Assembly: GCA_019633425.1 (NCBI GenBank)
Contig: WSUB01000064.1
Span: 1-64,000 of the forward strand
Reading direction: 5' to 3'
Origin: Tulasnella sp. 424
Taxonomy: Eukaryota; Basidiomycota; Agaricomycetes; Cantharellales; Tulasnellaceae
DNA: 64,000 nucleotides
In this document: piece by piece, positions 15,087 to 40,430 of the stretch
Layout: every line of letters begins with the position of its first letter
How positions within the stretch are numbered: position 1 is the stretch's first letter
Position numbers and translations under genes: made by a program
Notes under the pieces: model-generated
Told to the model about the DNA's origin: nothing
The model's input: the letters and a program-made list of their open reading frames with translations, nothing else
Databases searched by the model: none

Positions 15087-17440
15087 TTAAGCCTGCCGCA
15101 TCGAAGACGAGTCCACCGATCTCGCACGCTCAGCTTCGGCGTAACTAGGAGGCGGTGGGTCCGGTTCCGACTGCTGTCCGGCGACTTCCGTGGTGTTGTT
15201 GAACGGGTCGCCCGCTGCGCTCACCGTCGACGTGGGTCGCATTACAGGAGAACCAACCGAAGCCGTTACTGTCGCTGGCGACGCCGCCGCTGCTGGTTGC
15301 GGAGAACTAGAGCTCGAGTCGACTTTGGTTGGCGGCAGAGAAGCCGTCCGACCGTGTCCCGGTGTAGACAAGAGGTACGTCGTCATAGCCGGGGAAGTCG
15401 AGTTCGTTCGACTATGATCCGCTGAATGCGCGTTCGACTTTTCGTCCGACGCCGCAAACGCAGGGGCTGGTGGTGCCAGTGGAGCCGCGATGGTGGTGGT
15501 GGTGGGGACGTTCGTCGGGGGACCTGAGACTACAGACGCTCGAGGATCAAAGTACGATCCTTTGGACGAGCGAGGGTTGGCGTTGGACGGGTCTTGTTGA
15601 GCAGCGGGAGTGGCGAACGGGTCGGCGGGGTTGTAATAATGCTCGGTCGACTGTCGACGTTGCGCGTACGCTGGGTCGGCTGACCACTGACCTCCTCCCG
15701 CCCCGTACGAGCCAGAAGCCTGAGCGAAAGGATCCGTGTTGTTCCCCCACGGCTGCTGTTGCGGGTAATATTGCTGCTGCTGATTCGGATCGAACCACGG
15801 TTGGGGTACGGTGTTGAGGACCGCACCTCCCGGCTGACCGTACCCCGAGTCCCGCTTTCGCGCGCCGACGGGTACGATCACCGGGTAGATGTGGTGGGTG
15901 GGTGGACTAGCGCCAGGTGGAAGAGGGTGGGGGTAGGAACCTTCCAACCCAGTTCCTGGTGGTGGTGGTGCGTGCCCTCCGAATCCACCTCCTGCACCCC
16001 CACCGGGAACGTTTGCACCGTATCCTCCTCCTGCGCCACCGGGAACGTTCGCACCGGCTCCTCCTCCGCCTGCTCCTGAGCTTTCGATTCCAGTGCCGTT
16101 TGGATTGAACGGAGCGTGCGGACCGTGGGGAGCGTAAGGAGCATGAGGAGCGTAAGAAGCTCCTCCAGGTGCGGTCCCAAGCCCTGAACTTCCGGCCCCT
16201 CCGCCACTTATAGGATCGGGATCAATGTCCTGTAGCAAAACCTCAAGTACGTCAGCGTTATTTTTGAAATTCGAGCCATCTTTCCGCGAGTACTAAGACG
16301 TACCCCTTTCTCTCCTCCATGATCCCCATGATGCCCGTGCTTCCCATGACCTCCTCCTTTGCCACCAAAGAACTTGAAGTAGAAGCCTAAACCTATCAGA
16401 ACCGCGAGAGCGACGACACCAGCGGCGATTCCTCCAGCGATCGCTCCGACCTTGTGGGAGTTGTGGGAGAGGACGACTCCTTCTTGGGTTGGGGCCGGGG
16501 AGGAGCTGCTGGATGAAGATGAGGTTGTTGTTGCTACGAGAGCTGGGGTTAGACTTGGGTGAGTTGTGATGAGGAGGGTGGACGTTGAGGAAGGAGAAGG
16601 AGATGGCCTGGGAGTCGGGGTCGGAGTTGGCGTCGGAGTTTCTCTCGGTGTTGGCGTAGGCGTGGGTGTAGGCGTGGGTGTCGGCGTTGGCGTCGGAGTA
16701 GGCGTTGGCGTAGGCGTCGGAGTCGGAGTCGGAGTTGGCGTAGGAGTCGGAGTCGGCGTGGGTGATGGTGTCGTGCCTTCCGAGCCAAGGAGAGACCAAG
16801 TTCAAGGGTGTCCAGAAAGTTCAGCACAAGCAGAACAAAATTAGGAAATCCAAGGGAGGGGAAAAAATAATAATAATAAGCACTAACTCCTCGTAGAAGT
16901 TGTAGTACTAGTACTTGTACTAGAACTCGTTGAGGTTGAGGAGGACGTACTTATTTGTTGACAACTCGATCCGTATTCCGTCGCAACGGCGACAGGATCC
17001 CCCGGGTTTGATATTACTTCCTGTTGGAAATTGACCGTGGTCTGCACCGTACCGGGCACTTAAAACGATCAAAAGGGAGGGATGTCAGAATCTCTGTAAA
17101 TAATGAACCAACAGGGTCGGCGGCGGTTGAACCACCTCCAACCTCGCGGCAATTCGGAATACGATATAGCTCTCTCACCTACGCGTACCGAAGAGCTAAT
17201 AATTTCGGTCAACGTTCCATTCGGACATGAGCCTTCCTGTCTTTCAACTAAACGTATATCATTGCGAGGACGCCTACGACGCCGTGAGATTATAGGATCC
17301 GGGATACACGAGGTGATGGTGGTGATGTCGGTGACTGTAGAGCCTGGATTCGAGATAGTCGTCGTGACCGTATTCGTGATCGTCTGCACCACCTCTGGCG
17401 TCGAGAATAAGGTCCGCGTTGGGATTGATACGCAGTCCAT
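15087..17440 (-). CDS. T2a: Pro/Thr-stalk membrane protein with PPPPSY tail
   Basis: Model: exons 17440-17179, 17058-16888, 16776-16304 and 16229-15087, total 682 aa. The head starts MDCVSIPTRTLFSTPEVVQT and includes ITTITSC, an Arg-rich patch (SRRRRRPR) and a CPNGT site. The second exon has NPGDPVAVATEYGSSC. Exon 3 opens with a (PT)n stalk, then a helix (about 256-278) and a Gly/His/Lys inner segment. Exon 4 begins DIDPDPISGG, carries YPVIVPVGARKR, YFDPRASV and MTTYLLSTPGHGRTASLPPT, and ends with PPPPSY (about 660-665) and AEAERARS. Adjacent T1 and T3 genes share the architecture and strand. Single-pass N-out topology is inferred. No known product recognised. Confidence 0.82.
16610..16775. 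repeat. Imperfect 6-bp repeat coding the (Pro-Thr)n stalk of T2a
   Basis: Runs of GGNGTN hexamers (plus strand ggcgtaggagtcggagtt) encode alternating Pro-Thr on the minus strand. Because the unit is 6 bp, all frames remain open, giving spurious (GV)n frames on the plus strand. It is shorter than the equivalents in T2b and T2c. Confidence 0.8.
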
Positions 17441-17999
17441 TTAGGTGGTGGTGGTGGGATCAACCTCGGAGGAGGGCGGCGTCAAGGAAGGGGGGGAAAA
17501 GGGATAGGAGAGTGTCGGATGGGTTGCATTCTTTTGCGGGGCGGATGAGTCGAGTTTGAGCACAGGTTCTAGGCCTCGTGTTGCAACGGCCAAGCGTCGG
17601 CAGGCAGTGGACTATGTGTTGCTATACTTAGGTCAGGTTAAGGCGGAGGTTCTTAGGACCATCCTCGTTCAGTCCTTCAGGGACAAATACGTTGCACCGC
17701 CTCACACGCCACAACAGCACATGACAACACGAGGAGAAGGTGACTACAGCGCGAAGCGTCCATGTGACTAAACTATACTAAAATGTCTTTAATCGCAAAG
17801 TCCATATAAAGTGTCCTTGGCTGGCAAGATCAGTCCAATTAGCATACGGCGTCCATAAACCTTGAGAGTGTTTGATCGGATGTGAACAACCCTGCCAAGA
17901 TAGGCATGGCGGCTCCGAGGAATTTCATTTCAGGATGCGTTTCCCGCTCCAACGAAAATCGCACCGCCATCCCCGGTAACTATAACCCATCCCACCTTT
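17441..17999. promoter_or_regulatory. T2a 5' flank and T3a 3' flank
   Basis: About 17560-17720 recurs upstream of T2b (about 24480-24650) and T2c (about 30840-30990), including a core like ttcagggacaNNtacgttgca, so it is a candidate conserved promoter. The part next to T3a (17820-17990, tccaattagcatac and gcatggcggctccgaggaa) recurs after T3b, T3c and T3d. No gene seen. Confidence 0.5.
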
Positions 18000-19561
18000 C
18001 TAGTGTTGGGTTACGAAAAACTGCTCTTCCAAGCCACCAACTTCGTTGGAAGAAGCTGTTCCTCTCGACTGTGACGTTGCGACATCGCTATAGCTCGGCG
18101 GAATCTGATTTGAGCTCGACGGTCTACCTCTGGCCGTGGTTGGGCGTGTGGTCGACGGCTCAGAAGCTGGCGTCCAGGGAAGGGCTCTTGGGGAATCGGC
18201 GTGGTTTCGAGCTGGCTGTGGAGAACCTGAGCCCGTGACGGGAATGTTTGGCAGAGGGCGAGGTCGTCTTTGCCCTGGTGAGGTTGGTGAGGTAGGAAGG
18301 ACTGAGAGGGCAGAATCTGGCCTCCTAGTTGCGTCACTGGCTGGGCCTCCTGCTGGCTGTGCGGCGGTTCCAGACGTGCGTACATCAAAGTACGAAGAAT
18401 TAGCAGTGCCCGTATCGTTGCGAGCCTGGTCCCGCTCGGCAGGGGTAACTGCAGGGCTGTAAGACTGATATGATAGGTTCGGAGATGGTGATGACGTGTG
18501 CGTTGGATCGGCTGGAGCTGTTCCTCCCGCAAAGGATTGCCTTAACGGACTGGGTGTACGAACGAACGAACTTGTGCTACTGAGACGAGACGGCTGGCGC
18601 TGGTTCGGGTTCGGCCACACCGTTGGGAATACTTCCAGTACTACGCCTTGCTGCCCGTAATCGGGGCTCCTGCGCGGCGGAGGGTCTGCGGGTTCAGCGA
18701 CGTTTTGGACATGAAGTGCAGTTTGGCTTCTTCCTTGCGGAGGCGCAACGTAGAGATATGGGTTGAATCCTTCGGAACCCGCGACAGTTGGTGGTCCTTG
18801 CCCTGCGACTCCACCTCTTACCGCGCCCGGAACGCTGTCACGAGCATCTATTCTAACCAATGTAGGGCCACCTGCGGCGCCCTCTCCATTGACGAGGTGA
18901 GGAGATTGGGGAGCTTGTCCGACTACGCTTCTACCTCCAGCTCCAGCACTTGTGACGTCTTCGTCAGTCAGGGGGACCGGGTCCGGATCCAGGTCCTGCC
19001 GTCAGAACACTAAGCTTCAAGCACTCGGTGACCTTGAGACGAAAAAAGTTTTCAACTCACAACTTTCGTACTTCCACGGTGGCTGTGACGCCAATGACGA
19101 CTCCCTCCACCACCACTGCATTTCTTCCGAAGGGACTTGAAGTAATACGCTACACTGATGATCGTTGCAATTACTACCACTGCGATAGAAAGTGATCCAA
19201 GGATGATTCCAGTCTTGTGAGGGTTATGGGTGGTATCCGTTGGGGAAGGTTGGGGCACGTCGAGCGTGCCGAGGATAGCATATGCACGGAGTGGCGACGC
19301 TGAAGCTGGATTGGATGTTCGGGAGAGACTTTTTGTTGATTCTGTTGTGCTAGAAGTAACGCATTCGTTGAATTTGCTAGGACAGTCGACCTGACCAGGA
19401 TGCTGACGTTTGGCTCGCTCATCCTGATCCGTTGAATAGACGGTAACGGACTTATCATCTATCACAGCTGCCCCTGAGCTTGTACGTATTGTTGTGCTTG
19501 TCTCTATGGTGGTCTTGATGAGAGTAGAGGTGGCATTCGTTGGAGCGGGCAGGTAAGGCAT
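18000..19561 (-). CDS. T3a: two-exon membrane protein with PPSY tail
   Basis: Model: exons 19561-19061 and 18995-18000 give 498 aa. The head is MPYLPAPTNATSTLIKTTIE, with a possible kexin-type site (AKRQ) and DCPSKFNECV. The membrane helix is at about 118-141 (GIILGSLSIAVVVIATIISV), then KSLRKKC. The last exon begins DLDPDPVP and has FNPYLYVAPPQGR, YFDVRTSG, a PxxP-type RRPRPLPNIP and IPPSYSDVA (PPSY about 466-469). Fewer introns than T1, T2 or T4, but the intron after the helix is kept. T3a is the only T3 member with an intact frame plus PPSY, so it may be the functional reference copy. Function unknown. Confidence 0.8.
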
Positions 19562-20499
19562 AATAGCGAGAGATGGACCCTAGGAGCGATCGAGCGCATT
19601 AAAAGGGACGAGGGTGCGATGCCTAGTCAAGAAGAGAATGCTGTCCAGTCAGCTCTCTTGTCTTGGCTTGGGTGGGGCCTCACCTTCTGGCACAGGTCAA
19701 AGTCACGTCCTCGGTGCCAGACGGGGACATCGTGTTTAGGCTCCTTCGATCGCTCGAGGATGCACCTCGCTCAGGGTCGACGTTTCCGATCATCTGTCCC
19801 ACCCCCCAACCCCCCTCATTGATTCAAAAATGCCAAGGGAAATTTTCAGGACTCGCAGCGCTGAACGACGACCGATAGATAACGAAGCAAAAGACTCTCT
19901 GATGGGGAAAAGCGCTCACGAAAACTGAAATAGCTTGCGGCAGAACGGGGTTGTGGAGGTGCAATGGGAGGGGGAATAGCCTTGTTTAGGGGGGTTCGGA
20001 AGATATCGATTAGGGAAAGCGGCGATCTGCACTGGGGAGGAGGGGGTGAGTGCCAAGCGATACCCAAGGTACCTCGCCTCCCCCCCCCGTACTGCGATCG
20101 TGATTCAACAACAAGCAATAAATGCTATGCGGAGGGCCACCCTCGAAAATACATACTCATACGCTTGAAATATACTGTCGCTATAAAAAGATTGGTGAAA
20201 CTCCGACGCAAAGTTTAAACCTTCAGAGCTCGGAGCCGTAACATTCTTCGTCACGGTAGCCCCATACGTCACAAAATCTTGGCACACATGCGAGCCATGA
20301 GACTGGTGAAAGGCAATCACGCCCCAATCTCTCCAAAAACGGTCTAAATTGAATCGAGCTCAAGCTCGGAATCCAATTGGGCGCCTTGGGCCTACAGATG
20401 CGTTGGAAGTACTCATATACTTCATCGAGACTTAAACATCCTTTTAATATATGCTAACTAACTGGTGCGTAATCGGCTCCCGCTAGAACGAAATTTCGT
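19562..20499. other. T3a 5' flank and block X copy a
   Basis: The first part is the T3a promoter side; gggacatcgtgtttaggctc (about 19725) has counterparts upstream of T3b and T3c. About 20150-20320 matches block X copies near 27.5, 33.5 and 37.3 kb (around cttcgtcac and cccatacgtcac). A 9-base C run occurs at about 20080-20090. The minus-strand frame at 20105-20320 is not alignable in frame with the other X copies, so no gene is called. Confidence 0.45.
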
Positions 20500-21260
20500 A
20501 TACTAGACTAGTGCTAATTCTGGGTAAAGTTCGTGTATCGACTTCGGGATGTCCTTGGCCTGAGGGAATGGTCGAACCCCGGAGCATTATGGTCCAAGTT
20601 CAAGGTACTAGCTGCGCTATTCAAATAACCTTTGATAGCCTATCATTCTGGGAGCCGCAAGCTGATCATCGCTCAAATAATGGGAGAGCAGCGTGTTGAA
20701 CGACGCCCGCTATGACCGTCGATAGTACATGCATATCGCTGGCATGGGGCGCTAGGAGCATGTGCCAGATTCGACTCTTGCAAACGGATTCGCTCAGCTT
20801 CGTCGGCGAGGTCGCTCTAGACTCAGCGGGCGGGAGGGGGGACTGGTGGTTCCAGAACGGAGGTGCGTATGTGGGACGAGCTCGTCCTGTCAGGGTAGGG
20901 AAGTAAGGATCTCGGGAGATGGGAGGAAGAGGCAACCTCGTTTTGCCCCGGTAAGGAGGGGATGGGGACGGTGGATTCTCAAATGATTATGCTAAGTGTT
21001 ACATGTTAGTGCAGTTGAAACGGCGGGGGTACTGGTGATGGCAACGTCCGACTACTCCGTCGTCACGGTGTCGGCTGAGGTGACACTCCGTCTGCGGTTA
21101 TGTCTTCCGAAGCGATAGCAGCATCCCTAGTCATAGTTTCTTCCGAAGTGCCACATGTAATGATGCGTCCATCAGCAGTTGCATCAACATTCGAATTCGA
21201 AGACACAACTGGCTTTTAAGTGACAGCTGGCTGTGAGGTGGTAATGAGGTCTATGGCGAT
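20500..21260 (-). pseudogene. T4 relic a
   Basis: Decayed match to the intact T4 gene. About 20520-20700 matches the T4 3' flank (38120-38290), 20700-20990 resembles the last-exon and 3' region, and 21010-21200 matches the Thr/Ala-rich extracellular exon near 39845-39990 (shared catccctagtcatagt). The membrane exon is missing, and stops and indels break every frame. It sits where T4 would be expected in the first T2-T3-X-T4 module. Confidence 0.7.
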
Positions 21261-21764: not shown

Positions 21765-24385
21765 TCACGACCTTCCCACACCCTCCACTTCCGTCGACGA
21801 ATACGATGATCTCGAGCTCTCAACTTCGTCATAACCAGGGGGTGGTGGGTCTGGATCCGACTGCTGTTCCACCACTTCTGTGTGACTGTTGAACGGGTCG
21901 CCCGTTGCGTTCAAAGCAGCCGACGTCGATGTGGAGCTGATGTCTGGGTAACCAGTCGGAGTCGTGGTAGTTGGTAGTGCCGGCACCGGTGGTTGTCGAG
22001 ATCCAGAACTCGAACCAGGTCTGGTTGGTGGTAGGGAAGCTGTTTGGCCGTGCCCTGGTGTGGTTAAAACGTAGGTCGTCATACTCGGAGAAGTCGAACG
22101 CGTTGGGTTGCGATCCTTCAGGGACGGATTCGTCCTTTCATCCGTCTCAAGTATGGGGCCGAGTGGACTAGCGGTTGGGATGTTTGTTGGGTAATCTGCT
22201 CCAGACACTCGAGGATCAAGATATGGTGGCGTGGAAGGAGGAGGGACGGCATTGAACTGGTAATGTTCAGAAGTAGGCCTCGAGAAGGGGTCGTTAGGGT
22301 TGTAATAAATGTCGCCCGACTGTGGACGTTGGGCGGCACCGTACGTATACGCTGGGTCAGCCGGCAAAACATCCATCCCTCCTCCATGATACTGCCTAGA
22401 GGGACCATAATAATGGTTTGTATCCTCATCTGTCGCAAGTATGGGGGCTAATGGCGCAGCGAGAATGTTTGCTGGATGATCTGCTATGGACGATCGAGGG
22501 GTGTATTGCGATCCTCTGGAAGAGCGGTAATTGGCGTTGAAAGGGCCTTGTTGAGCAGCGGGGGCCGAGAATGGGTCGTTGGGGTTGTAATAATTGCCGC
22601 CCGACTGTGGGCGTGGAGCGGAAACGTAGACTGGGTCGACCGGCTGACCAAAGGTCGCTCCAACAGAGTACCGCCCAGGTGGCCCAGAAGGATAGGCAAA
22701 TGGATTGGCGTTATCCCGAGTTTGTTGTGGGTAATACTGCTGCTGATTCGGATTGAACCCGGGTGTGGGTGCAGGATTCAGGACACCACCGGCCGGTTGA
22801 CCATACTCTGTCCGCCTCCTTCGCGCACCAACGGGTAAGGTCACCGGGTAGCCGTTTTGCGTGGGTGGGCTAGCTTCAGTCATGGGTGGTGGTGGTCCTT
22901 GCCCTCCGAATCTACCTCCTGCACCACCTGGAAAGTTCGCACCAGCAGCTCCTCCAGCAGCTCCTAGCCTCCCGATTCCATTCCCGTCTGGATTAAGGAG
23001 AGGAGCCTGGGTATAGCTATGTGAGTTCCTAACACCTGGACGTCCTGCTCCGCCAGCTGTAGGATTGTACTTAATGTTCTGAGGCAAATATATTAGCGTG
23101 ACGTTCTAAAGTGCACCCACAAATAAAACTTACCCCTGAACGCCTCCCTCTGCAGCACCTGAAGTAGAAGCATACCAAAATCCCAAGAGCGATAATGCCA
23201 GCTACGACTCCCCCAGCTATCGCTCCGACCTTGTTGGAATTCTGGGAAAGGGAGACTCCATCCTGGGATGGTACCGGTACGTCGGGACTGGACGAAGTTG
23301 TTGTGATCACGAAAGCGGAGGTCAGACTTTGGTGGGTTATTGTGAGGCGGGTGGATGTTGGGGAAGAAGAAGAGGATGATAGAGAGAGCGTGGATGTCGT
23401 GGTCAAAGATGAGGTCGGAGTAGGACTTGATGTTGATGTAGGGCTTGATGTTGAAGTAGGGCTTGATGTTGATGTAGGGCTTGACGTTGTCGTCGGGGAA
23501 GATGTAGGGGTCGGGGTAGGTGTCGGAGTAGGCGTAGGTGTTGGGGTTGGAGAAGGAGTCGGAGTAGGTGTAGGCGTCGGGGTCGGAATAGATGTTGGAG
23601 TAGATGATGGTGAAGGTGTAGGTGTCGGGGTCGGGGTAGGTGAAGGCGTAGGCGTAGGTGTAGGCGTTGGAGTGGTTGGCGTAGGTGATGGTGAAGTTGT
23701 AGGGATAAGTGTAGGTGTAGGTGTAGGCGTTGGAGTAGGTGTAGGCGTCGGCGTAGGTGTCGGACTTGGCGTAGGGGTCACCATAGGGGTTGGCGTGGGA
23801 GTCAGTGTCGGCAGGGTAGTCGGCATCAGGTCTGTCCAAACGAATGGTCAAGGCGAAGAGTTCAAGGGTTCACAAGGTCAGCACGGCACATAAGAATTAC
23901 CAAGACGAGAAATCCAAAAATAGAAAACAAATACTGACTCGTCGTAGTACTTGCACCATCATCCGTTGAGGTTGAAGCCGTACTTAGTCCACAACTCGAT
24001 CCGCATCCCGTCTCGGCGCTTGTTATTAGTTGCTGGGTCACGAGCGTGGTGATTATCTGAGGATTCTCTTAGAAATCACAAAAAAAAAGGTGTTGCTTAT
24101 TAGGGTTTCTCTCCGAGATGAAGTAATCAACCGACTAGGGGTGGCGGTGGCTGTTGAACGGAGCAGCAATATTATATGGCTCTCACCTGTGTGTACTGTC
24201 CAGCTAACAACTGTGGTTGGTCCATTTGGACACCCATCATCTTGGAGACACTCGGTGATGATGACAGTATCGGTGATGGTAGCTCCGGGACTCGTAAAAA
24301 CTGACTGGATCGTGGGAGCAACTGTCTCAGTGATTGTGAATGGTGTCAGGGATAATGTTTGCGTTGAAATTGGTATGGAGGCCAT
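21765..24385 (-). CDS. T2b: long-stalk membrane protein with PPPPGY tail
   Basis: Model: exons 24385-24187, 24067-23939, 23831-23134 and 23078-21765 close at 779 aa. The head is [15 protein letters not shown] with ITEC and DDGCPNGP; exon 2 ends in a SSCGLSTAS region. Exon 3 has a long stalk mixing (PT)n and four SSPTST units, then a helix (about 313-333) and [10 protein letters not shown]. Exon 4 has [13 protein letters not shown], a duplicated NPNDPFS/ILATDE segment, [20 protein letters not shown] and PPPPGYDE (about 753-758). The first Cys of the family start (MxC) is lost. First T2 of the 6.3-kb tandem pair. Intact; function unknown. Confidence 0.82.
23420..23825. repeat. Stalk repeats of T2b: 18-bp and 6-bp classes
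   Basis: Plus strand about 23425-23490 has four 18-bp units of the type gggcttgatgttgatgta (minus strand SSPTST). About 23510-23825 is an irregular GGNGTN hexamer field coding Pro-Thr and Pro-Ser. Length and composition differ from T2a and T2c at the same place, while the membrane exon edges are conserved. Confidence 0.8.
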
Positions 24386-24919: not shown

Positions 24920-26749
24920 CTAGTGTTGATATACGAACAGCTTCTCGTCCAAACCACCAACTTTGTCCGAAGCTGACCCTCTCATCCGTGACGTTGCGAC
25001 ATAATCATAGCTTGGAGGAAGTTGGTTTGAGCCTGATGGTTCACCTGCTCTGAGCTCGGTTGGGCATGTGTTCGATGATTTCGACGCTGACGTCCGAGTT
25101 GGGGCTCTGAGGGATTCGGCGGTGCTTTGAGCAGGCTGTGAAGAATCCGGGCCCGTAACAGAAAGACCAGGAAGAAGGCGCGGTCGTCTTTGTTCTGGTG
25201 AAGTTGGAAAGACAGAAGCTGCAGAATCTGGCTTCCTAATCACTTTTTGGGGTGGGGCTTTTGCTGGCTGTGCCATCCCAGACGCGCCTACAGCAAAGTC
25301 CAGAGAGTTGGAGGTGTCAGTACTGATGTGAGTTTGGTCTCGCTCGGTTGGCGTAGCTGAAGGACGAAAAGACTGACGTGTCAGGCTGGGAGACGGCGGT
25401 GAAGTGGACCTTGGGTTAAGACCCCAACTTGTTCCCTCAACACGGGACCGCTTTAATGGCATTGGTGACGAAATGAACGGAATTTTATTGCTACGCAACT
25501 TCTGGCGTTGGTTCTGGGCCGGCCGCGCTGTGGGGAGAACTTCCATCGCACCTTGTTGCTCATAATCAGAGCTGATGTGTCGCGTATCTGGGAGTGCATC
25601 GACGGGTTGGGCATGACGTGTGGTTTGGTTTCTTTCGGGTGGAGGTACGACGTAGGGATACGGGTAAAGTCCTTCAAAGGCCGCGGCACTGGGTGGTGCT
25701 TGCCATCGTGCTCCGCTTGGAATGCTTTCACGAGCGCTTCTTCCAACCCATGCAGGGCTGACTAAAGAGCTCTCTCCATCGGTGGGGCGAGGAAATTGAA
25801 AAGGTTCAACAACGACGCCCCGATCTCCAGCTTCAAGACTTTCGACACCTTCAGCCGAAGCGTCCAGGTCCTAACGGCAAACCCTGAGATCCAAGCATTT
25901 CGGCAAATAAAAATACTTTAACTCACAATTACAATTCTCCTGCCTGCACGGCGGCTGCGACGCCAAAGAAGACACCCTCGACAACCGCATTTCTTCCAAA
26001 GGGACGTAAAACAAAATGCTAGACTGACGATTGTGGCGATTGCGACCACCGCGATAGAGATTGATCCAACTATTACTCCAGTTCTGTGGGGATTATGAGG
26101 GGTACTGGTTGGGAAGGGATGAGGGATGTCGAGGGTGCCGAGTGTAGCAGCTGCACGCAAGGGCGAGGCTGAAGCTGGGTAGGATGCTCCGGAGGAGAGG
26201 AAAGGTGTGAGCTGAAGCACCACATATGAGGGAAAACCGCAAACGCATGGTAGCTTACTGATTGGTGGGGAGACGCTTGGTTCGGAGGTGCAACAGTTTG
26301 CATACTGCATCTCAATTTCAATAGTAGAGGAAAGGTTTGTTGTCGATTCAACTATAATTAATGGGCCTGCTTTGATATGGGCATCTACTATGTGTACAAT
26401 AAGAGAGAGGCGTGGTTTCCTGTCACAACGCTGTGCTACTGACCCAGCCGCCGGAGAGAATGTGTACCCTCTTATGGACATCGGTGGCATGCTACGTAAA
26501 TCCAATCGTTCTAGGGGTAACACATTCGTGGAGCCCGCTTGGGCACCGGTCAACCCGTTGGGGGTCCCGGTGATGACCACGAACCACCTCATCGGTGTAA
26601 TAGTCCGAACCGCCGGTAACGGCCCCATCATGTGCGATAACTGTCCCTGGACCCGTGAGAAGTGTCGTAGCTGTCCCTGATGTTGTTTTGATATGCGTGA
26701 GGGTTGGGTTGAGGAGACGGTATTCGTCGGAGTGGGTAGGCAAGACATG
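24920..26749 (-). pseudogene. T3b: frameshifted T3 copy
   Basis: The last exon (25870-24920) is open and starts DLDASAEGVES. It contains LYPYPYVVPPPERNQ, a degraded PxxP site (RRPRLLPGLS) and LPPSYDYVA, so PPSY is kept. The helix segment (GVIVGSISIAVVAIATIVSL, near 26050) is intact. The first exon is broken. From the aligned start ATG (26749, MSCLPTPTNTVSST) an AACCCAACCC duplication adds 5 bp relative to T3c and leaves the IKTTSGTATTLLTGPG frame. The donor used by T3c (GGAGGTGAGT) is GGATTTACGT here. An upstream ATG could rescue the shifted frame, so some expression is not excluded. Confidence 0.7.
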
Positions 26750-26766
26750 GCAGCCGGGGAGGGGTA

Positions 26767-28004: not shown

Positions 28005-28050
28005 TGTCAAAACGGGCGATGCGTGAAGGAAGCTCACAGCCACCAGCGCC

Positions 28051-29996: not shown

Positions 29997-30040
<44 letters not shown>

Positions 30041-30752
30041 AGGTGTAGGTGTTGGCGTAGGTGTAGGCGTCGGTGTAGGAATTAGTGCAGGGGTCAGCGT
30101 CGGAGTTGGTGTGAAAGTCGGCGTCAACAAGGCTGTTGGCATTAGGTCTTTCCAAGCAATTGCAAGCGAACATCATGTTCCAACGATTGGCCAAGGCGAG
30201 AAGTTCAAGGGTCCAGAGAGTTCAGCACGGCATATAAGAATTGCCAAGATAAAGAAACCCCAAAAATAGAAACAAGTACTGACCCGTCATAGAAGTTGTA
30301 ATACTTGTACCATCATCAGTTAAGGTCGAAGACGTACTTATTCCACAGCTCGACCCGTATTCGGTTTCGATGGCAATGGTATCCAAGACGCTTGTTATTA
30401 GTTCCTCAGTGATAGCGAACGTAGTGATTATCTGAGGATCCTCTTAAAAAATCGAAAAAAAGAGGAGGACATATCGCCCGTTAGGTTCTCCGAGGTAAAG
30501 TAATCAACCAAATCCGGGCGGCAGATCGCAGCAGTGTGTTACATAACTCTCACCTGTGCGTACTGTCAAGGTAACAACTTCGGTCGGTCCATCCGGACAC
30601 CCATCATCCTGGAGACACTCGGTGAAAGTGACGGTATCGGTGATGATTGCTCCTGGACTCGTAAAAACTGACGTAATCGTGTAAGCAGCCATATCGGTGA
30701 CCACAAACGGTGTCAGGAATAAGGTCTGGGTCTGAATTGGTACGCAGTCCAT
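28051..30752 (-). CDS. T2c: long-stalk membrane protein, PPxY degraded
   Basis: Model: exons 30752-30554, 30442-30284, 30147-29447 and 29382-28051, closing at 796 aa. The head is [20 protein letters not shown] with TFTEC and DDGCPDGP. Exon 2 has [11 protein letters not shown], the conserved Cys site lost in part in T2b. A long (PT)n stalk precedes a helix at about 321-341 and FYFKCCRGR. The tail parallels T2b ([40 protein letters not shown]), but the terminal motif reads PPSPGYDE (about 770-775), so the P-P-x-Y core is lost. The frame is otherwise intact. Unknown function. Confidence 0.82.
29755..30125. repeat. Stalk hexamer array of T2c with a perfect GTCGGT core
   Basis: A GGNGTN hexamer field codes Pro-Thr on the minus strand. 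About 29998-30036 contains an almost perfect GTCGGT run, the most homogenised part of any stalk here and so probably recently expanded. The third minus frame reads (DT)n and the plus strand (GV)n; only the PT frame connects to head and helix exons. Confidence 0.8.
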
Positions 30753-31267: not shown

Positions 31268-32899
31268 CTAGCTATAGTGTTGGTTTCTGAAGAGCTCCTC
31301 GTCCAAGCCACCAACCTTGTCCGAAGCTGACCCTTTCAACTGTGACGTTGCAACATAATGATAGCTCGGAGAAAGTTGGTCTGAGCCTGATGGTTCACCT
31401 GCTCCGAGCTTGGTGCGGCGTGTGGTCGATGGTTCCGAAGCAGACGTCCGAGTTGGGGCTCCGGGAGAATCGGCGGTGTCTCGAGCCAGTGGCTGTGACG
31501 ATCCTGGGCCCGTAACAAGAAGACCAGGAAGAGGGCGCGGTGGTCTTTGTCCTGGTAAAGTTGGAAAGACGGAAGATGCAGAATTTGGCTTCTTAATCAC
31601 TTCTCCGGATAGGGTTTTTGCTGGCTGTGCCATCCCAGACGCGCGTAAATCAAGGTCTGAAGAGTTGGAGGTGCCAGTACTGATGTGAGTTTGGTCCCGC
31701 TCGGTAGGCGTAGCTGACGGGCTATAATACTGACGTGTCAGGTTGGGAGACGGCGATGAAGTGGAGCTTGGGTCAACACCCCAACCTGTTCTCCCAGCAC
31801 GGGTCCGCTTTAATGGCATAGGTGAAGAAATGAACGGGATTTCATTGCTACGCAACTTCTGGCGTTGGTTCCGGGCCGGACGCGCTGTGGGGGGAACATC
31901 CATTGCACCTTGTCGTTCATGATCAGAGCTCCTGTGTCGTGTTTCTGGGAGTGCATTGACGGGTTGGGCATGACGCGTGGTTTGGATTCTTTCGGGTGGA
32001 GGTACGACGTAGGGGTACGGATAAAATCCTTCAAAGACCGCGACACTCGGTGGTCCTTGCCATCGTGCTCCGCTTGGAATGCTTTCACGAGCACTTCTTC
32101 CAACCCATGCAGGGTTACCTAAAGAGCTCTCTCCGTTGCTGAGGCGAGTAGATTGAAAGGCTTCAACAGCGCCCCAATCTCCAGCTTCGCCACCTTCAGC
32201 GGAAGCGTCCAGGTCCTAACGGCAGAACCTGAGATCCAAGCATTTCGGGACGTAAAAATACTTTAACTCACAATTACAACTCTCCTCCTTGCACGGCGGC
32301 TGTGACGCCAAGGCAGACCCCTTAGACCACCCCCTTTCTTCCAAAGGGACGTGAAATAAAATGCTAGGCTGATGATTGCGGCAACTGCTACTACCACGAT
32401 AGAGACAGATTCAGCTATTACTCTAGTCCTGTGGGGGTTCGGAGGAGTGTTCGAAATTGCATAGTGCATCTCATTTGCAATTGGAGAGGAAAGGCTTGCT
32501 GTCGATTCGGCTATAATTAGTGGGTCTGCTTTTGCTTGGGCATCTACTATGTGTACAATGAGAGAGAGGCGTGGTTTCCTGTCAGAACGCTGTGCTACTG
32601 ACCAAGCCGCCGGAGAGAATGTGTACCCTCCTACAGACAGCTGTGATATGCTACTCACCTCCAATCCTTCTAGAGGTAACACACTCGCTAAGTCCGCTTG
32701 GGCACTGGTCAACCTGTTGGGGGTGCTGGGGATGACGACGGACCATTTCATTGGCGTAATAATCTGAACCGCCGGTAACGGCCCTATCATGCGCGGTGAT
32801 TGTCCCTGGACCTGTGAAAAGTATCGCAGCTGTCCCTGATGTGGCTTTATGCGTGAGGGTTGAGGAGCCGGTATTCGTCTGAGTGGGTAGGCAAGACAT
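31268..32899 (-). CDS. T3c: T3-type membrane protein lacking PPxY
   Basis: Model: exons 32899-32659, 32528-32272 and 32215-31268 give 481 aa in frame. The head is MSCLPTQTNTGSSTLTHKAT with a DQCPSGLSECVTS cysteine pair, then a helix at about 118-139 (SVSIVVVAVAAIISLAFYF) and SLWKKGGG. About 70 residues present between head and helix in T3b are missing. The last exon starts DLDASAEGGEAG and has FYPYPYVVPPPERIQ and a PxxP site (RPPRPLPGLL). The terminal motif is LSPSYHYVA in place of PPSY (about 448-451). Start fixed by alignment with T3b. Probably translatable, but the WW ligand is gone. Confidence 0.72.
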
Positions 32900-33129
32900 A
32901 GCAGGGGGGGAGGGGGAAGCAAATCTCTGGCGAGAAGAGCACTACGCGGGGCGGGAGTTCAATGAAAAGTCAAGATGAGAATGCTGTCCACCCGCCTTTA
33001 TTGTTCTAGCATAGGAGGAGCCGTAAAAGATCTGCAATCTTGTTGCACAGGTGAAGATGAGCATTTGAAACCCAACGCGGACATCATGTTTAGCCTCTCT
33101 TCGGAGGATGTATCTTGCGCAGGGCCTGC
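32900..33129. promoter_or_regulatory. T3c 5' flank
   Basis: Single-copy equivalent of the 172-bp segment duplicated before T3b, with cggacatcatgtttagcctc at about 33079 and a downstream tcgagaggatg-type stretch. No gene. Confidence 0.4.
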
Positions 33130-34190
33130 GGCTACGGCCGTCTTGACCTTCGAATGCGCTCCACCTCCAAAATGCCAAGAGAATTTCGAGAACACAGCAC
33201 TGAAATATGACATCCCGGATTCGGAGTGCTCGAAACCTCGAACCAGCTGCGGCAAACGGCACTTACAGTCGCGACAGGCAACGAACAAGGAAATAGCCAT
33301 GCTCAAGGTGTCGGAAATCCATCGAATAGGTAAAAAGGCGCAGGACTACACTGCGGAGAAGGGGGTCTAGCGCCAAGAGAGATCGGGGGTATTCGCCCAA
33401 TCACTGCGGGGCTTGCCATCCAGAGCACCTCGTGGTAGGGAGGGTCTGGGAAAACAGTTGTGCTTGTAAATGGGCAACTTTATGGAGACTTCGGAGCGAA
33501 TCACACTTGCAAGGACTTGGAGCCGCCATATCTCCGTCACAACGTGGCTCCCCAGTATTTCACGAACATAATGGCGATGCCTTAGACACTCAAGCTTGCC
33601 TCGAGCCGCTGAAATTAGCACCGGAGTCTGATAAGGGCCTTTGTCAACGAAATAGTCGAGAGGAATCAGCGCAGAGCCCATTACGGGAACCACGCCTGTT
33701 GGTTAGGAAGAACGGCTCCTCGAGACGTGGGTACAGGTTGTTTGATTTGACGGCTCCGAAATTCGGGAATGAACCTATTGGGTCACAGTGGGTGCAGTCA
33801 ATATTAAGTATACGGAAGCATCCTGGTGTACGTTGAGCCAGAAGCTGCAGCCGGATTACCCGCGCGCGCGACCGCCGATGTCCGAGAGTTCCGTAGAATG
33901 AAAGCCACTCCCTCCGTTCTACCCTTTCTCCTGAGGCAAAATGCTCTCCAAAAGCTCCACTCGTATTAATGACTAGTCAAGCAACGGATCGAGGTCCCTC
34001 TTGCAGAAGATCACGCATCCTCTGTCGACCCGACACTTCCAGATTCGACCATCGTGATTTCTTATAGCAGGATAAAGTGCTCATTCGCGGAGTCATACAA
34101 GCCTTGGAGCAATCGTGAGTGTTGGGTCGGCAGACACTGATGGAGAACGCGCCAGCGAGAGTGCGATAGCTCCTTGCGACTGAGGACGTC
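33130..34190. repeat. Block X copy c (longest)
   Basis: Counterpart of 27111-28004 plus a further stretch (about 34060-34170) shared only with copy d (37890-38020). There the minus strand gives similar peptides (LPTQHSQMSQGLY-like in d, LPTQHSRLLQGLY-like in c). Stops differ between copies. The conserved short peptide windows hint at a decayed multi-exon gene accompanying T3; no family is recognised. Confidence 0.5.
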
Positions 34191-34319
34191 TTTCAATTGA
34201 CATTTAATTTGGAAATTGGCAGCATATATTTCGAATCCCCCGACAACAAAACATCCATATCCTACCTACTAAATGCTCCTTCACAAATAAAATAGCAATC
34301 AGCTGTCGCCAGAGCTTCG

Positions 34320-34610
34320 TTCGTTGATGTTACGGTAAAGTCCGGTCGATTGGCTTCGAAGTGTCCCTGCGCTGCAGAAACGTTTGAAGCTCGGTCCGTC
34401 ATAGTATTTCAGGCTACCAGCTGCGCTCGTCGAGTAACCTTCCACGCACTGTCGCCTTGGCAGCTGCGAGCTCACCGCTCAAATATAAATAGGATGGACG
34501 CGTGGGGGTGAGGCGAGCCCCGTCGTCGCCCATTCCAGCCGAAGTGACACCTGTATCCCTGGTCGTGGTTTCGTCTGAAGTGTTACCAGCGTCGGAAGTA
34601 ACATATGCAT
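34320..34610 (-). pseudogene. T4 relic c
   Basis: About 34330-34490 matches the T4 3' flank: the minus strand gives GYSTSAAGSLKYYDGPSF, against GYTNSAASSSKYYDVPSF beside the intact T4. About 34500-34600 matches the Thr/Ala-rich extracellular exon of T4. Everything between, including helix and tail, is deleted. It then joins T3d's 3' flank with no T2 gene between. Confidence 0.65.
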
Positions 34611-34913
34611 ATGATTAAATTACTGGAAAATAGCATTAAACGCAAGTCCATAACGATTACGGTATCAGTCCGATTAACTTATGAGGTGATATATAAAGAA
34701 GAGACAGTTCTCCGGCCCGGGAGCGATCGATTCAATACAATACGGATGAGGATAACCTGCAAAGATAAGCATGGGCGGTTCCGAGGAGTTCATTTCAAGT
34801 CTTTCCCACTCCAACGGGGATCGCACAGCCAGCCCCAGTGAATGATAAAGAGCTGCTCTTCCAAGCCACCAACCTCGGACGGAGGTCACGAAGCTGCCCT
34901 CGCGACCGTGACG
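34611..34913. other. T3d 3' flank
   Basis: Matches the T3 3' flanks (gcatgggcggttccgaggag at about 34771). It also keeps the former last-exon end: the minus strand still reads SEVGGLEEQLF after a stop, so part of this flank was coding in the ancestor. Confidence 0.5.
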
Positions 34914-36689
34914 TTAACTTACGGTATCAGTGTAATTCACCGGAAGCTCATCTTCTGGACTCGTTGGTCCCCCTCCCACCTCGGTTGGGCGTGTAGTCGA
35001 TGGTTTGGAGGCTGACATCCGATATGGGGGTTTGGAGGGACTGGCGATGGTTCGAGCTGGCTATGTAGAGCCTGGGCCCATGACGAGAATGCTGTGGCTG
35101 CCTTTGTCCTAGTGAAGTTGATGACGATGTTCTTGGAAGGACTGAGGTGGTAGAATTTGGCTTCCTAACAGCTTCTCTGGCTGGAGCTTTTGCTGGCCGT
35201 GCATTCCCAGATCTAGACGCCCGTACGTCAGAGGATAAAGAACTAAGGGTACCAGTGCTTCTGCGAGTTTGGTCCAGCACGGTGGGAGCAGTTGAAGGGC
35301 TGTAGAACTGATATGACAGGTTGGTAGACGATGCGGTGGACGTTGGGCCTACTCCCAAACCTGTTCTCCCGACATAGGGCCGCTTCGGTGGATTGGGCGA
35401 GGAGATGAACGAACTCGTGTTTCCATCAAACAGCTGACGTTGGTTCCGGGTCGACCACACTGTGAGCGAAACATCCATGACGGCTTGTTGTCCATGATCA
35501 GAGCTCCTCAGTCGCGCGTCTGCGGGGGCGGGGACAGGTTGGGCATCACGTGCGCTTTGGCTCAGCCTTCCTTGTGGAGGAGCCACGTAGCCCGGATATG
35601 GGTAAAATCCTTCGACAGAGGCACTCTGCCCTCCAACTTCACGTCTGGCTCCACTTGGAATGCTCTCGCTGCTACTTCCTCCAACCCATACAGGGCGACT
35701 TCTAGAGCTTTCTCCATCGGTGAGGCGGGGAGCTTGGGGGGCTTGCCTGACTACGCTGCCACCTCCGGCTCCAGGACTGTCGACACCTTCTTTAGTCCAA
35801 GACTCCAGGTCCTAACGGCAAGAATCTGGGGTTCAAGCATTTCAGTGACGTGAAAAAAATTTAACTCACAGCTCTCCTGCTTGCACGGTGGCTGTGACGA
35901 CCACCTCCACAGCCACAGCATCTCTTCCGAAAGGACATGAGGTAGAATGCTAGACTGGCGATTGTAGCAATCGCTACTACAACGGCAGAGATTGATCCAA
36001 CTATTATTCCGGTCCCGCGGGGTTTCAGACTAGCCTTCGTTTCGGTGGGATGAGGGAGCTTGAGAGTGCCGATTCGGAGTGCGTCTGCGCTTGATGGCGG
36101 GGTTGAAGCTGTGTAGGATGTTCCAGAGGAGACGGGAGACATGAGCTGAAGCACTACGTATGAGGGCAGACCGCCAGCACGTGGTGCTAATTCACCACTT
36201 ACTGATTGTTGGCTCGGGGGAGAAGCTACGTTTGGAGTTGCAACATTGCGTCTTAATTGCAACGGGTGAGGAAAGGCTTGTCGTCGGTTCAGCTATTATA
36301 ACGAGGCCTGCTGTGGTTCGGGAGCTTGCTATGTACGCAGGAAGAAGAAGAAGAGGCATGATGCCCTCTTGAGCCATTCAACGCTCCGCCGGAGGGATGG
36401 GAATACCCGCTCACGGACAGGTTTGGTACGTTACTCACATTCAATTACGCCAGAAATAATACATCCCTTGTATCCACTTGAAAAGTCGTACTGTAGAGAG
36501 CGTTGGTGCTGACACAACGTCTCGTCCGATCGCGAGTCGGCGGAATCCGTTGAACTGATGGTAACGGTCCCATCATTTGATGTAACTGTGCCTGAACGCA
36601 CGTAAAGTGTCGTGGCCATCCCAGGTACTAGCTCGATGAGAGTAGAGGTCGAAGAGACGGTATTCATCGAACTGGGTAGGCAAGAGATG
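34914..36689 (-). pseudogene. T3d: decayed T3 copy
   Basis: The last exon starts at 35811 (DLESWTKEGVDSPG) and keeps YPYPGYVAPPQGRLSQSA. After LGQRQPQ the frame shifts; the original frame contains a stop in the GST*PA stretch and ends early at ELPVNYTDTVS. The PPSY site is thus replaced and the C-terminus lost. The helix GIIVGSISAVVVAIATIASL (near 35980) is intact. The aligned start ATG is ATC (36689), although an internal ATG follows at codon 8 (SSMNTVSS). Several independent lesions make it a pseudogene. Confidence 0.78.
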
Positions 36690-38140
36690 GCAACGGGAGG
36701 CAGATCCCAGGTGAGAGACCGTGAAGAGGAACGAGCGTGCAATGAATAGTCGAGATGAGAATGCTGTCCGCTCAGCCTTATCATCCAGGCGTTGGAGCAG
36801 CCGCAAAAGATCTTCAATCTTGCTGCACAGCCTGAGGTCAAGGCCCTAACGCGGACATCACCGTTTAGACTCTTTCAGAAGATGCATCCTGTTCCAGGTC
36901 TACGCCGTACGATCACTGGTACCTGTCACCTCCGCAGCGTTGAAATATGACAATGGGTCGGAGATTCCCGACTGGGAGTGTTCACGGTACCTCGAGGCAG
37001 CTGCGGCCGAATGGCGGTTGCACTTGCCACAGGCAATGAACAAGGGAATGGCCCGGCTCACTGCATGCCGAAGCCATCGAGCAAGTAAAACGGCGGGGGA
37101 TGAGACTGCGGAGAAGGGGCTAGCCCAAGGGAAAATGCAGATCTCCGCCCGACCATTGCGAGACTTGATGTACGGGGCACCGCCTCGCAGTGAGGAGGGT
37201 CTCGCAAACCACCGTAGCTCGCAAAGAAGCATCCTTATCGACGAAGAATTCAATGTAAATTACACTCGTAAGCTAGAACTCGGGCCCATAACATCTCCGT
37301 CACGATGTTGACGATCCATACGTTCCGAAGGTAATGGCGAAACCCTCAGCTCCCGGAATCCGTTTCGGGGCTCGATTGGGATTTGGGCTTCGAATTGGAA
37401 TTCGACCCCGAACCATCAAGGAAGTACCCGCGAGGAATCAGCACGGAACCCCTTGACGGGTCTTGCATGTTAATGGCTTTTTGATATGTGGATGCAGCTG
37501 GTCTGATCTGATGCCCCCGGACTTCGGCGATGAATCTCTCGGATCTCAATGGGTGCGACCAATCCCCGCCCTATGGCAGCGTCTTAGTAAGCGTCGAGCC
37601 AGCTGCTGTAGCCAGATTTTGCGGGCACGACCGTGAAATGTCCACTCGAGGTTTCGCTGAAGTTTTGTTTGCATTGTGGCTAGCCCCTTCGTGCTACTTC
37701 TTCCCCCTAAGGCAAAAATGCTCTCCAAGAACTCTCAGTACTGTCCTATCTATCCTAGATACCGGGAAACTCGCCAGTATATCGATATCTACTCGCACCG
37801 AAAAACCAGTCAGGTAACCTAATTTCCTCCAGAAGACGACACACTCATTCTCGGCACCATAATTCCATAGTTGATCATCACGAGTTACGATGGCAGGATG
37901 AAGCACTTATTCACGGCGCCATACAGGCCTTGGGACATTTGCGAATGTTGGGTTGGTAGACGTTGATGGAGACACCTGTCAGCCAGTATTTGACAACTAC
38001 CTTGCGAATGAGGACGTCGTTCGATCTACATTAGCTTTGACAGAATTTTTTTTCAAAGTAATGAAGCATACGTATTTTACCTACTATAAACTCCTACAAA
38101 AAACTAGTAACAAGGTGTCGTAGATGTAAAAGTCCTGTCT
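36690..38140. repeat. T3d 5' flank and block X copy d
   Basis: About 36900-38030 aligns with X copies b and c (ctgcggccgaatggcgg, catctccgtcacgatg, ccccggacttcggcgatgaat). The minus strand reads SVLIPRGYFLDGSGSNSN near 37380-37450, which I cannot match to a family. T3d and T4 flank it, giving the order T3-X-T4 of the module. No gene called. Confidence 0.5.
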
Positions 38141-38347
38141 ATCAAGTTCGGGATGCCCTTGCCCCGGAGAAACATGTGAAGCTCGGTACATCATAGTACT
38201 TCGAACTACTAGCTGCGCTGTTCGTATAACCTACCATGGTCTGTCGTTTTGGTGGCGGCCTGAGGCCGATCATCATCATCGCTCGAATATGCGAGAATAA
38301 CTCTTTGAATGACGCCCGCGACGGTTGTCGCAAGAACATGCATATGC

Positions 38348-40430
38348 TTATTGCTGGCTTGAGGTGCTACCGGTATGTGATAACGTTGACTCTCGTAAAC
38401 GGGATCGTTCGGCTTCGTCATAACTGGGGGGAGGCAGCTCTGCAGGACTCAACGGACGAGAAGCAGGGCCGAATGGGCGAGCGGTTAATGGCTCTAGGGC
38501 GGACGTGCGTGCGTAGGGCGAACTAGCCCTATCAGGGTCGGGCGGTGGGGAGCTCGAGAGTGTACCAGGGATGGAAGGAAGTGGGCGGCCCCGTCCTGGC
38601 GAGGAGGGACGGAAGGAGACGTCGGATTCTCGTTTGCTGCCTCCTTCGCTACTTGGAGCATTCGCGAGCAGCAGTGGTGCGTCAGACGCGCGTGAGTCAG
38701 TGTACATAGTCTGCTTCTCGGCCGACGACGAGCCCGTTGGATCAGTTCCTCCGACCGAGGACTGCCTCTGTGAACCTGAAGAGGAGGAGAGGGGAGCTGC
38801 ACCGTTCTGGACGTATCTCAGCTGGCTCGCATCCATCCACGGTGTAGGCAGAGTGGATTGTCTGAAATCCGACTCTCGCTTCTTTGCCCCACCAGGGACA
38901 ACAACTGCGAAGGGATCATGGTGTGCGGCTGCCGGAGCTCCTGCTCCTTGCACTCCGAGTCCGCTTCCTCCTCCGCCCGGTGTTGAGCTCCCAATATCCC
39001 CTGCACCACCAAGATAGGGAGAGGGGAGGGGGGGCTTTTCGGCTCCGTATACGTTCTGGGCGCCAGAACTTCCGAAACCTCCCAAAGGCGCAGGATCCAA
39101 GTCCTATTAGCTCAAAATAGTGAGCGCGTAGCTCTTAAGATGCACAGAGTTTAACTCACAGCTTCCTCGCCTCCGGGATGGCTATTAGCGACGTTGCTAA
39201 CCCGATGGCCACCTTTCTTCTTAAAGAACTTGAAGTAAAAAGCCAGAGCGGCGATGACCACAAGCACCACAACGGCAGCAGCAATTGCCCCAGCTATGAT
39301 ACCGATATTACTGGTTTGACGAACGGGAGTGACTGGGATGGTTTGCGTAGAATTGGCGGTGGTAGAGGCCGGAGTCGGCGACAAAGTTGAAGGTATAAGA
39401 AGAGTTTGGACTAAGTTGGAGACGGTGACGATGGTCGAGAAGACTGTGACAGTGGGCTGAGCGCGTGGGGTACCTATCCAATATATGAGAGCGAGGAGAA
39501 AAGGGATGTGTTAACTTGCACGAGACGCCGAAGGCGGGAACGTACTCGTTGGCTGTGGTTCTGGTGTCACAGTTGACACATCATGGGTAGTGACTACTGC
39601 CGTTACGGTGGCACCCGGTTCAGGATAGCAAGTGGTTGAGTATTGTGTTTCAACCGCTTGAGGGTCTCCAAATCTTGTTGTCAGCTGCTCGATTATAATG
39701 AAGCTAGATATGATTTCAGGAGGCACTGGAGAATCGGAAGGAGACGCGAGTCCCCGTTATATCGTTAGCAACAGGATGCCCCGAGTCGACGATTTATCAG
39801 TGACTCACGAGTGGTTATGCTAGATGTTACATATTCAGAGCAACTGAGTTGGCGGGGGTAGCGGTAGCGGCGACGTCCGACGACTTCGTCGGGGGCCGCC
39901 GAAGTGGCACCTGCGTCTGCGTTTCCTGTGGCTTCCGAAGTGGCACCTGCATCCCTAGTCATAGTGTCACCTGCAGTGTTACCTGCATCCGTCGTTACAA
40001 CTGCGTCCGTGGTTGCAACTGCATCTGTCGTTTTCTGGCCATCTGGAGTGCTACCTCCATCTGCGCTTGGACTTGCGGCTTCAACCCTGGAAGTGGTTAC
40101 AACAGGCTCTGAAGTGACAACTGGTTCTGAAGTGACAACAGGCTCGGAGGTGACAACCGGCTCTGAAGTTACGACAGGCTCGGAGGTGACAACAGGTTCT
40201 GAGGTGGTGATTGGGTCTGAGGTGATTGGGGACGTCGAGATTGGGTCCGTGGTGGTCGTGGTGGTCGTGGTGCTACCCGAATCCGAAATTCCAAAACATG
40301 ATGAAGTGGTGTAGACGTCGGTTCTGACAGCTCCTGGATTGGTATACACAGACACAGTTGTCACCGAAGTTGTTTCAACGACAGATGGTGTTGAATAAAG
40401 GGTTCCAGTGGGGATAGTCGTGCACGACAT
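38348..40430 (-). CDS. T4: membrane protein with EPVVTS repeats and PPPSY tail
   Basis: Model: exons 40430-39809, 39725-39546, 39473-39160 and 39103-38348 give 623 aa. The head is MSCTTIPTGTLYSTPSVVET, then YTTSSC, a TTTTTTTT run and six EPVVTS units (about 77-112). A TDA/GNT-rich part and RRRYRYPRQLSC follow. Exon 2 has TRFGDPQAVETQYSTTC. The helix is at about 325-348, followed by KFFKKK. The last exon begins DLDPAPLGG, has FAVVVPGGAKKRES, a PxxP-type RGRPLPSIPGT and LPPPSYDEAERSRL (PPPSY about 596-600). The only intact T4; two relics lie at 20.5 and 34.3 kb. Function unknown; a surface glycoprotein with a WW-binding tail is inferred. Confidence 0.82.
40090..40200. repeat. Six 18-bp EPVVTS-coding units in T4
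   Basis: Plus-strand units of the type ggctctgaagtgacaaca, six in a row, alternate two slightly different versions (ggctcggaggtgacaac and ggttctgaagtgacaac). They extend the Ser/Thr-rich stalk and are absent from T1-T3. Confidence 0.85.

Follow-up and report, generated by a model that had tools for sequence, protein, structure and literature searches.

Tandem arrays of surface-protein genes that evolve by birth and death are a known kind of locus, and the outer domains of WSC/MID cell wall sensors are rich in serine and threonine (Ser/Thr). Part of one account (PMC6685044) describes these sensors as having a single transmembrane (TM) helix, a tail acting on Rom2, and a long extracellular domain fixed to the wall. 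Excerpts of two papers (PMC5578492, PMC9105457) present yeast Rcr1 and Rcr2 as TM proteins that carry PY motifs and act together with Rsp5; the first excerpt describes them as single-TM proteins and gives the extended PY motif of Commissureless (Comm) as GLPSYDEAL, and the second mentions that non-arrestin Rsp5 adaptors exist. Here we describe a minus-strand array of ten gene copies, some of them broken, at 9.3 to 40.4 kb of a 64,000-nucleotide (nt) window of contig WSUB01000064.1 from Tulasnella sp. 424 (Cantharellales; contig, 210,635 bases; genome, 46.8 Mb in 448 contigs). The window is the whole stretch of DNA analyzed, and the ten copies belong to one family of predicted PY-tailed membrane proteins.

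Like other birth-and-death arrays of surface proteins, the Tulasnella locus combines tandem duplication, pseudogenes, and relics; unlike them, its copy history can be read block by block, and positive selection and strain variation are not established here. The array proteins share with Rcr1/Rcr2 and Comm a TM helix and a cytoplasmic PY motif, and the Comm sequence GLPSYDEAL, as given in the excerpt of PMC5578492, resembles the PPPSYDEAE of the array. They differ in having a long Ser/Thr-rich, cysteine (Cys)-bracketed outer part, a long tail, and tandem copies, and a Pfam scan of T4, T1a, T2c, and T3a at E 0.01 returned no family for any of the four. The Pfam RCR model serves as the homology criterion for Rcr-like membership. 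Because none of the four proteins had a Pfam hit, array proteins at most work like Rcr or Comm and are not members of those families. As far as the Pfam and literature searches reach, the family is new, and its kind is already known. For a genus of orchid-mycorrhizal fungi, the locus establishes a family that has no Pfam match, offers a duplication history resolved by blocks, and has a clear tail motif that predicts a testable partner.

Four subfamilies of one gene family

Copies were compared by blastn self-comparison of the window. Spliced models were built on the minus strand only, the strand whose frames the family proteins match in the window. Nine protein models resulted (T1a, T1b, T2a, T2b, T2c, T3a, T3b, T3c, and T4; Table 1), with a four-exon structure common to T1a, T1b, T2a, T2b, T2c, and T4; the first donor of T2a was chosen manually so as to agree with T2b and T2c. 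A preliminary description of this DNA had presented a T2-T3-X-T4 membrane-protein module and had omitted T1. In the present analysis, T1 to T4 are four subfamilies of a single protein family. In a 13-row tree of the TM and tail, T1a and T1b grouped with P0003 and T4 with P0001 and P0002, while the T3 copies branched as (a,(d,(b,c))) and the T2 copies as (a,(b,c)). The comparison proteins were P0001 (source code "lgn") and P0002 and P0003 of Tulasnella sp. 427. Support for the T2 fork was 94/93, just below the starred level, T3b has an unusual composition, and the inner order of the T4 clade was not resolved. Midpoint rooting made T2 sister to T1 and T3 sister to T4. Each of the T1 and T4 clades includes a sp. 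427 protein (P0003 and P0002, respectively), and both subfamilies are therefore older than the split from sp. 427.

Table 1. Features of the array, in window coordinates
Feature	Position	Strand	Remarks
T1a	9260..11186	-	4 exons, 566 aa; tail with PPPSYDEAG; P0003 (Tulasnella sp. 427) is a relative
T2 last-exon 3' fragment, T1-duplication scar	12024..12213	-	12024-12170 vs 15091-15237, 96% identical
T1b	12334..14294	-	4 exons, 576 aa; forms a tandem duplication with T1a
T2a	15087..17440	-	exons 17440-17179, 17058-16888, 16776-16304, 16229-15087; PPPPSY tail
T3a	18000..19561	-	intact, two exons, 498 aa
Xa, shortened spacer	19601..20078	.	self-comparison
T4 relic a	20526..21260	-	large internal deletion and indels
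T2b	21765..24385	-	4 exons, 779 aa; tail with PPPPGY; loss of the first Cys in the ectodomain
T3b, probable pseudogene or altered gene	24920..26748	-	exon 1 frameshifted; tail exon open, LPPSY
172-bp tandem microduplication (91.9%)	26766..27109	.	covers T3b upstream region
Xb, non-coding spacer closing tandem unit b	26950..28008	.	self-comparison, indels
T2c	28051..30752	-	4 exons, 791 aa; PY motif lost (PPSPGY)
T3c	31268..32899	-	3 exons, 487 aa; PY motif lost (LSPSY)
Xc, non-coding spacer	32990..34026	.	self-comparison, indels
T4 relic c: T4-downstream segment and exon-1 fragment	34004..34614	-	blastn and protein match
T3d, pseudogene	34948..36688	-	start codon lost; tail frame broken before PY motif
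Xd, spacer	36770..37760	.	self-comparison
T4, only intact T4 in window	38348..40430	-	4 exons, 623 aa, LPPPSYDEAE tail

Public annotations agree with parts of these models. The T3a model is identical to FRC04_009953 over 498/498 residues, FRC04_009955 (P0004; sp. 424) equals the T2c tail over 443/443 residues, and the tail of FRC05_010990 (P0005; strain 425) equals the T2b tail over 430/430 residues, with part of its first half corresponding to T2b DNA read in another frame. Both P0004 and P0005 are named hypothetical proteins and have no TM window, their outer parts being missing or misread. Such genes are easily overlooked, because in two of the three public sp. 424 and 425 models examined the outer part and TM are absent or wrongly read. 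Public-protein searches scored the best 7987 or 7988 candidates by shared words, and among these the alignment search with T3, T1, and T4 returned FRC04_009953 alone; with this scope, the searches do not show that the family is missing from other fungi. Literature searches found nothing for PPSYDEA or PPPSYDE, no use of "PY motif" in reports retrieved for basidiomycete tandem PY-motif families, and nothing about these Tulasnella strains by strain name; an Rfam scan and a comparison with a plasmid collection led nowhere.

Within the sp. 424 genome, T1a had one match outside the array contig below E 0.001 (C396, 34.8 to 35.2 kb, E 2.9e-6), with further matches to its N-terminal, TM, or tail part on C26 (76 to 94 kb) and C2 (206.9 kb) at E 0.1 to 0.4 only. 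Searches with the T3a frame and with T4 gave no match outside that contig. Six-frame reading of C396 (34.8 to 35.2 kb), C26 (76 to 97 kb), and C2 (205 to 207 kb) also revealed Ser/Thr-rich low-complexity frames with a hydrophobic stretch, and a C2 frame overlapping one of these holds a PPPAYD motif.

Duplication and decay of the T2-T3-X-T4 block

The preliminary description had proposed four same-strand T2-T3-X-T4 units with aligning flanks, derived by repeated duplication followed by losses. Self-comparison bore this out, with colinear same-strand diagonals that from 15 kb on take in the spacers as well as the genes, and the duplication history was supported by the tree together with the self-comparison. 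Units b and c align over 21723-26103/28009-32448 (79.8%), 26298-26934/32457-33110 (79.8%), and 26930-28008/32915-34026 (78.8%). T3a aligns with T3b, T3c, and T3d at 65 to 68% identity (E 1e-88 to 1e-140), T2a with T2b and T2c at 64 to 70% in the main pieces, and the X and T4-downstream region of unit c with that of unit d at 61.7% (33020-34467/36800-38259, E 1.5e-102). Xa is shorter yet present (19605-20078 versus 32948-33397, 60.8%, E 8e-19).

The sub-blocks most alike are the 6.3-kb T2-T3-X duplication that forms units b and c and a 3.1-kb tandem duplication of T1 (9134-12213 versus 12215-15278, 87%), which lies outside the array described earlier. Because the right breakpoint of the T1 duplication falls within the last exon of T2, a T2 3' fragment carrying a PPPPSYAEAE coding stretch remains alone between T1a and T1b, at 12.02 to 12.21 kb. 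Over the whole array, main alignments between copies are 61 to 87% identical, and T1 tails are 96% identical. An assembly artifact was considered and judged unlikely, because the copies have diverged to this extent and the strain 425 protein has the identical T2b tail.

Two losses of T4 that left relics had been proposed, and both relics were found by blastn. Relic a aligns at 20526-20980 (versus 38129-38631) and 20974-21157 (versus 39802-39985); about 1.2 kb is missing, comprising exons 2 and 3 and more than half of the tail, and frame-breaking indels and a gap through the PPSY codons are present. Relic c matches at 34004-34460 (versus 37830-38252) and 34539-34608 (versus 39935-40004, E 8e-9), with a weak protein match at 34495-34614 (E 0.033). 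A third, traceless loss of T4, proposed for unit b, is not needed, because units b and c are head-to-tail duplicates of T2-T3-X whose ends (21723/28008 and 28009/34026) leave T4 out. The proposed single loss of T2 stands insofar as unit d has no T2, but a separate event is not required. At the junction (34608-34743), the T4c exon-1 fragment runs straight into the truncated T2-T3 spacer of unit d, and a single deletion may have removed the 5' part of T4c along with all of T2d. The breakpoints thus suggest that a T2-T3-X-T4 block was duplicated into the present units a, b/c, and d, with T4 decaying in a and c.

Decay also reached the T3 copies. In T3b, a 5-bp difference from T3c shifts the frame of exon 1 while another frame stays open across it, and the copy is probably a pseudogene or an altered gene. 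T3d has ATC at its start where T3b and T3c have ATG, and its tail leaves frame ahead of the PY motif. With tandem paralogues of different age alongside pseudogenes, the array fits birth-and-death evolution. As an example of how a gene family turns over by local duplication and decay, it is well preserved, though fairly ordinary. Near a PHO13-like gene to the right, a 130-bp segment (41621-41750) aligns with T4-downstream sequence in unit c (34005-34130, 64.6%) and is perhaps a remnant of a further unit.

X segments behave as spacers

X had been counted as a gene of the module, a reading that the indel pattern contradicts. Between units b and c, indels were multiples of three in 7/7 cases in the T2 and T3 tail exons, compared with 4/15 in X and its spacer and 3/13 in the T2-T3 spacer (7/7 for tail exons versus 7/28 for spacers, p = 0.0005). 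T2 exon 3, also 7/7, was left out of this test because its short PT repeats have a unit of multiple-of-three length. In the T3 outer-part region two of three indels kept the frame, the third being the 5-bp shift. Because X indels ignore frame, unlike those of the tail exons, X is regarded as non-coding. A coding X was further rejected on the top-listed ATG frame, which differs among Xa, Xb, Xc, and Xd (three frames listed per copy), although stop-to-stop frames at 27695-28006 and 33644-33976 are partly alike by eye. A genome search with Xb gave five matches, all inside the array. X is 77 to 88% identical between units b and c in 300-base windows and is about equally conserved as the tail exons (83 to 90%); a regulatory role is possible from sequence conservation of this kind.

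Protein architecture

In the models, a Ser/Thr-rich outer part at the N terminus leads into a TM helix, 2 to 5 basic residues come next, and the tail covers about 275 to 455 residues (tree-row lengths less the TM). Ser/Thr content of the outer part is 23 to 49% in the eight models other than the frameshifted T3b. Four Cys residues in two brackets (C-x41..42-C and C-x42..47-C) are found in five of the nine models (T1a, T1b, T2a, T2c, and T4) and in P0001, at positions 4/46 and 71/118 in T1a and 3/45 and 197/240 in T4, and the distance between brackets ranges from 6 to 152. Both the outer part and the Cys pattern are shortened in the T3 copies. Each protein has one strong TM window, and no N-terminal hydrophobic stretch was seen in the models, for which no signal-peptide predictor was run.

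At the C terminus, PPxY followed by acidic residues occurs in seven of the nine models, and P0001 to P0003 also have a C-terminal PPxY. A structure model of P0001 places the TM helix block at pLDDT 80 to 95 and a short helix straight after PPPSY. The sequence RPLPxxP, an SH3-ligand pattern, is present in T3a, T4, P0001, and P0002.

Selection on the copies

Between T1a and T1b, dN and dS were 0.116 and 0.138 in the outer part and 0.017 and 0.106 in the tail, so that the outer part changed about 7-fold faster at amino-acid-changing sites (Fisher p = 3e-11 for nonsynonymous changes, p = 0.42 for synonymous changes). When the scrambled stretch surrounding Cys 2 and Cys 3 was excluded, 18/149 outer residues differed, versus 12/352 in the tail (p = 6e-4). 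Gene conversion behind the similar tails was judged unlikely, because synonymous divergence is the same in tail and outer part. Compared with P0003, the N-terminus of which is missing, T1a is identical at 49/99 positions of the outer part from residue 87, 251/334 of the tail, and 72/80 of the last 80 residues. There is good support for constraint on the T1 tail.

On Pro/Ser/Thr-rich sequence, dN/dS is a rough measure, and YN00 exceeded NG86 throughout. Tails of T2b/T2c and T3b/T3c gave omega values of 0.61 and 0.82 by NG86 and about 1.1 by YN00. The T2 N-module gave 0.37 to 0.71 by NG86, and its exons 1 and 2 gave 0.9 to 2.1 by YN00. For the far-diverged T2a pairs, exons 1 and 2 gave about 2.1 (YN00) or 0.87 (NG86) against T2b and about 1.5 or 0.70 against T2c; T1a/T1b exons 1 to 3 gave about 1.1 or 0.77, and the T1 outer part gave 0.84 by NG86. 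Diversifying or dosage selection, suggested in the preliminary description, is thus neither established nor refuted: NG86 omega was below 1 in every comparison, although several YN00 values were near 1 and those for T2a exons 1 and 2 were higher.

A predicted role for the PY motif, and alternatives

On sequence grounds, array proteins are likely to be PY-tailed surface proteins whose turnover, or that of their partners, runs through Rsp5. A candidate ligase is encoded on contig C437, where HECT exons (78168-79119) lie beside three WW domains (79446-80030, one open frame) on the same strand, the layout of an Rsp5/Nedd4 ligase. The N-terminus would face the wall, with the TM acting as a reverse signal-anchor, because no N-terminal hydrophobic stretch was seen. 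The PY motif would dock onto the WW domains of the Rsp5/Nedd4-type ligase, and docking would tag for endocytosis either the protein or a membrane partner bound to it. The outer part would then determine what the protein senses or holds, the tail would determine how long it stays at the surface, and copies without PPxY (T2c, T3c, and T3d) would escape Rsp5-driven endocytosis.

Several observations weigh against turnover through Rsp5 or against the architecture it assumes. PPxY is absent from three copies, T2c, T3c, and T3d (T3d read by eye), and so short a motif could serve another WW protein, 15 WW matches being found on 10 contigs. "Single-pass" is less sure for T4 and P0001, because both have another hydrophobic window, weaker than the TM and lying some 50 residues ahead of it. 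The P0001 structure model has low overall quality (mean pLDDT 43.5, 4 sequences); outside the two helices it is of low confidence, and it is too weak for a fold search. T4 and P0001 show no contrast between outer part (161/294, 54.8%) and tail (135/258, 52.3%), and the T2b/T2c and T3b/T3c copies may be mostly relaxed, because YN00 omega is near 1 for their tails. In the systems used for comparison, the excerpt of PMC5578492 reports that the Comm-Nedd4 contact is dispensable for midline Robo control and that Rcr1 can do without Rsp5 in chitin deposition.

Much of the array can be put down to copies that are relaxed and decaying, and it is conceivable, though we lean against it, that the locus is mostly neutral debris, with one or two conserved genes (T1 and T4) and drifting duplicates from unequal crossing over whose number brings no benefit. 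The broken T3d and T3b, the two T4 relics, the loss of PPxY in three copies, and b/c tail omega values of 0.6 to 0.8 (NG86) or about 1 (YN00) all fit such drift, but long open frames were kept in T2b, T2c, and T3c, and the frame-keeping of all seven b/c tail-exon indels is not expected of debris. At the other extreme, the array could be a recognition locus for an orchid partner or a non-self mycelium, with variable outer parts on constant tails and diversity kept by selection. The faster T1 outer part at equal dS, the similar split between T1a and P0003, and the elevated YN00 values for T2a and T1 exons point that way; NG86 stayed below 1 in the same comparisons, T4 lacks the outer/tail contrast, and the T2b tail is identical in strains 424 and 425, with no polymorphism in that single comparable piece, all of which makes such a locus improbable. 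The locus would be an entry point to orchid-mycorrhiza recognition if the outer parts turn out to bind partners from plants or fungi.

A more elaborate version is highly speculative. It would have a recombining recognition locus in which fast two-bracket outer domains sit on a conserved Rsp5/Nedd4-recruiting tail, and in which PY loss in unit c and outer-part damage in unit b (the T2b Cys loss and T3b frameshift) amount to a reciprocal division of labor in which some receptors for a plant or fungal partner live long and others are quickly recycled. The proteins might instead be cell wall sensors of the WSC/MID kind, in which a Ser/Thr-rich, wall-tied rod signals stress via the tail to Rho1 and PPxY only tunes turnover. 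The Ser/Thr-rich outer part, TM helix, and tail agree with this idea, and the long outer part, one TM, and cytoplasmic tail resemble those of the sensors as described in part of PMC6685044, with the reservation that T4 and P0001 have the second hydrophobic window. We consider it unlikely, as the four scanned proteins have no WSC, Mid2, or SKG6 domain and the array tails are long and PY ended, whereas the yeast sensor tail is described in that part of PMC6685044 as short. Turnover through Rsp5 remains the reading that we favor.

Upstream and flanking sequence

Two stretches about 80 to 150 bp before the start are common to T3b, T3c, T3d, and T4, and one of them is also present in T3a. The 26766-27109 microduplication includes the upstream element common to T3c, T3d, and T4. 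T4 and T3c are alike near their starts (40488-40571 versus 32968-33051, 68%), which fits the grouping of T3 with T4 in the tree. Across ten upstream regions, no 8-mer was common to six or more.

To the right of the array, a weak HAD match below the Pfam cut-off (41962-42540) lies at the PHO13-like gene of the preliminary description. Farther right, cytochrome P450 matches occur in single open frames at 50303-50782, 56197-56655 (below the Pfam cut-off), and 61327-61812.

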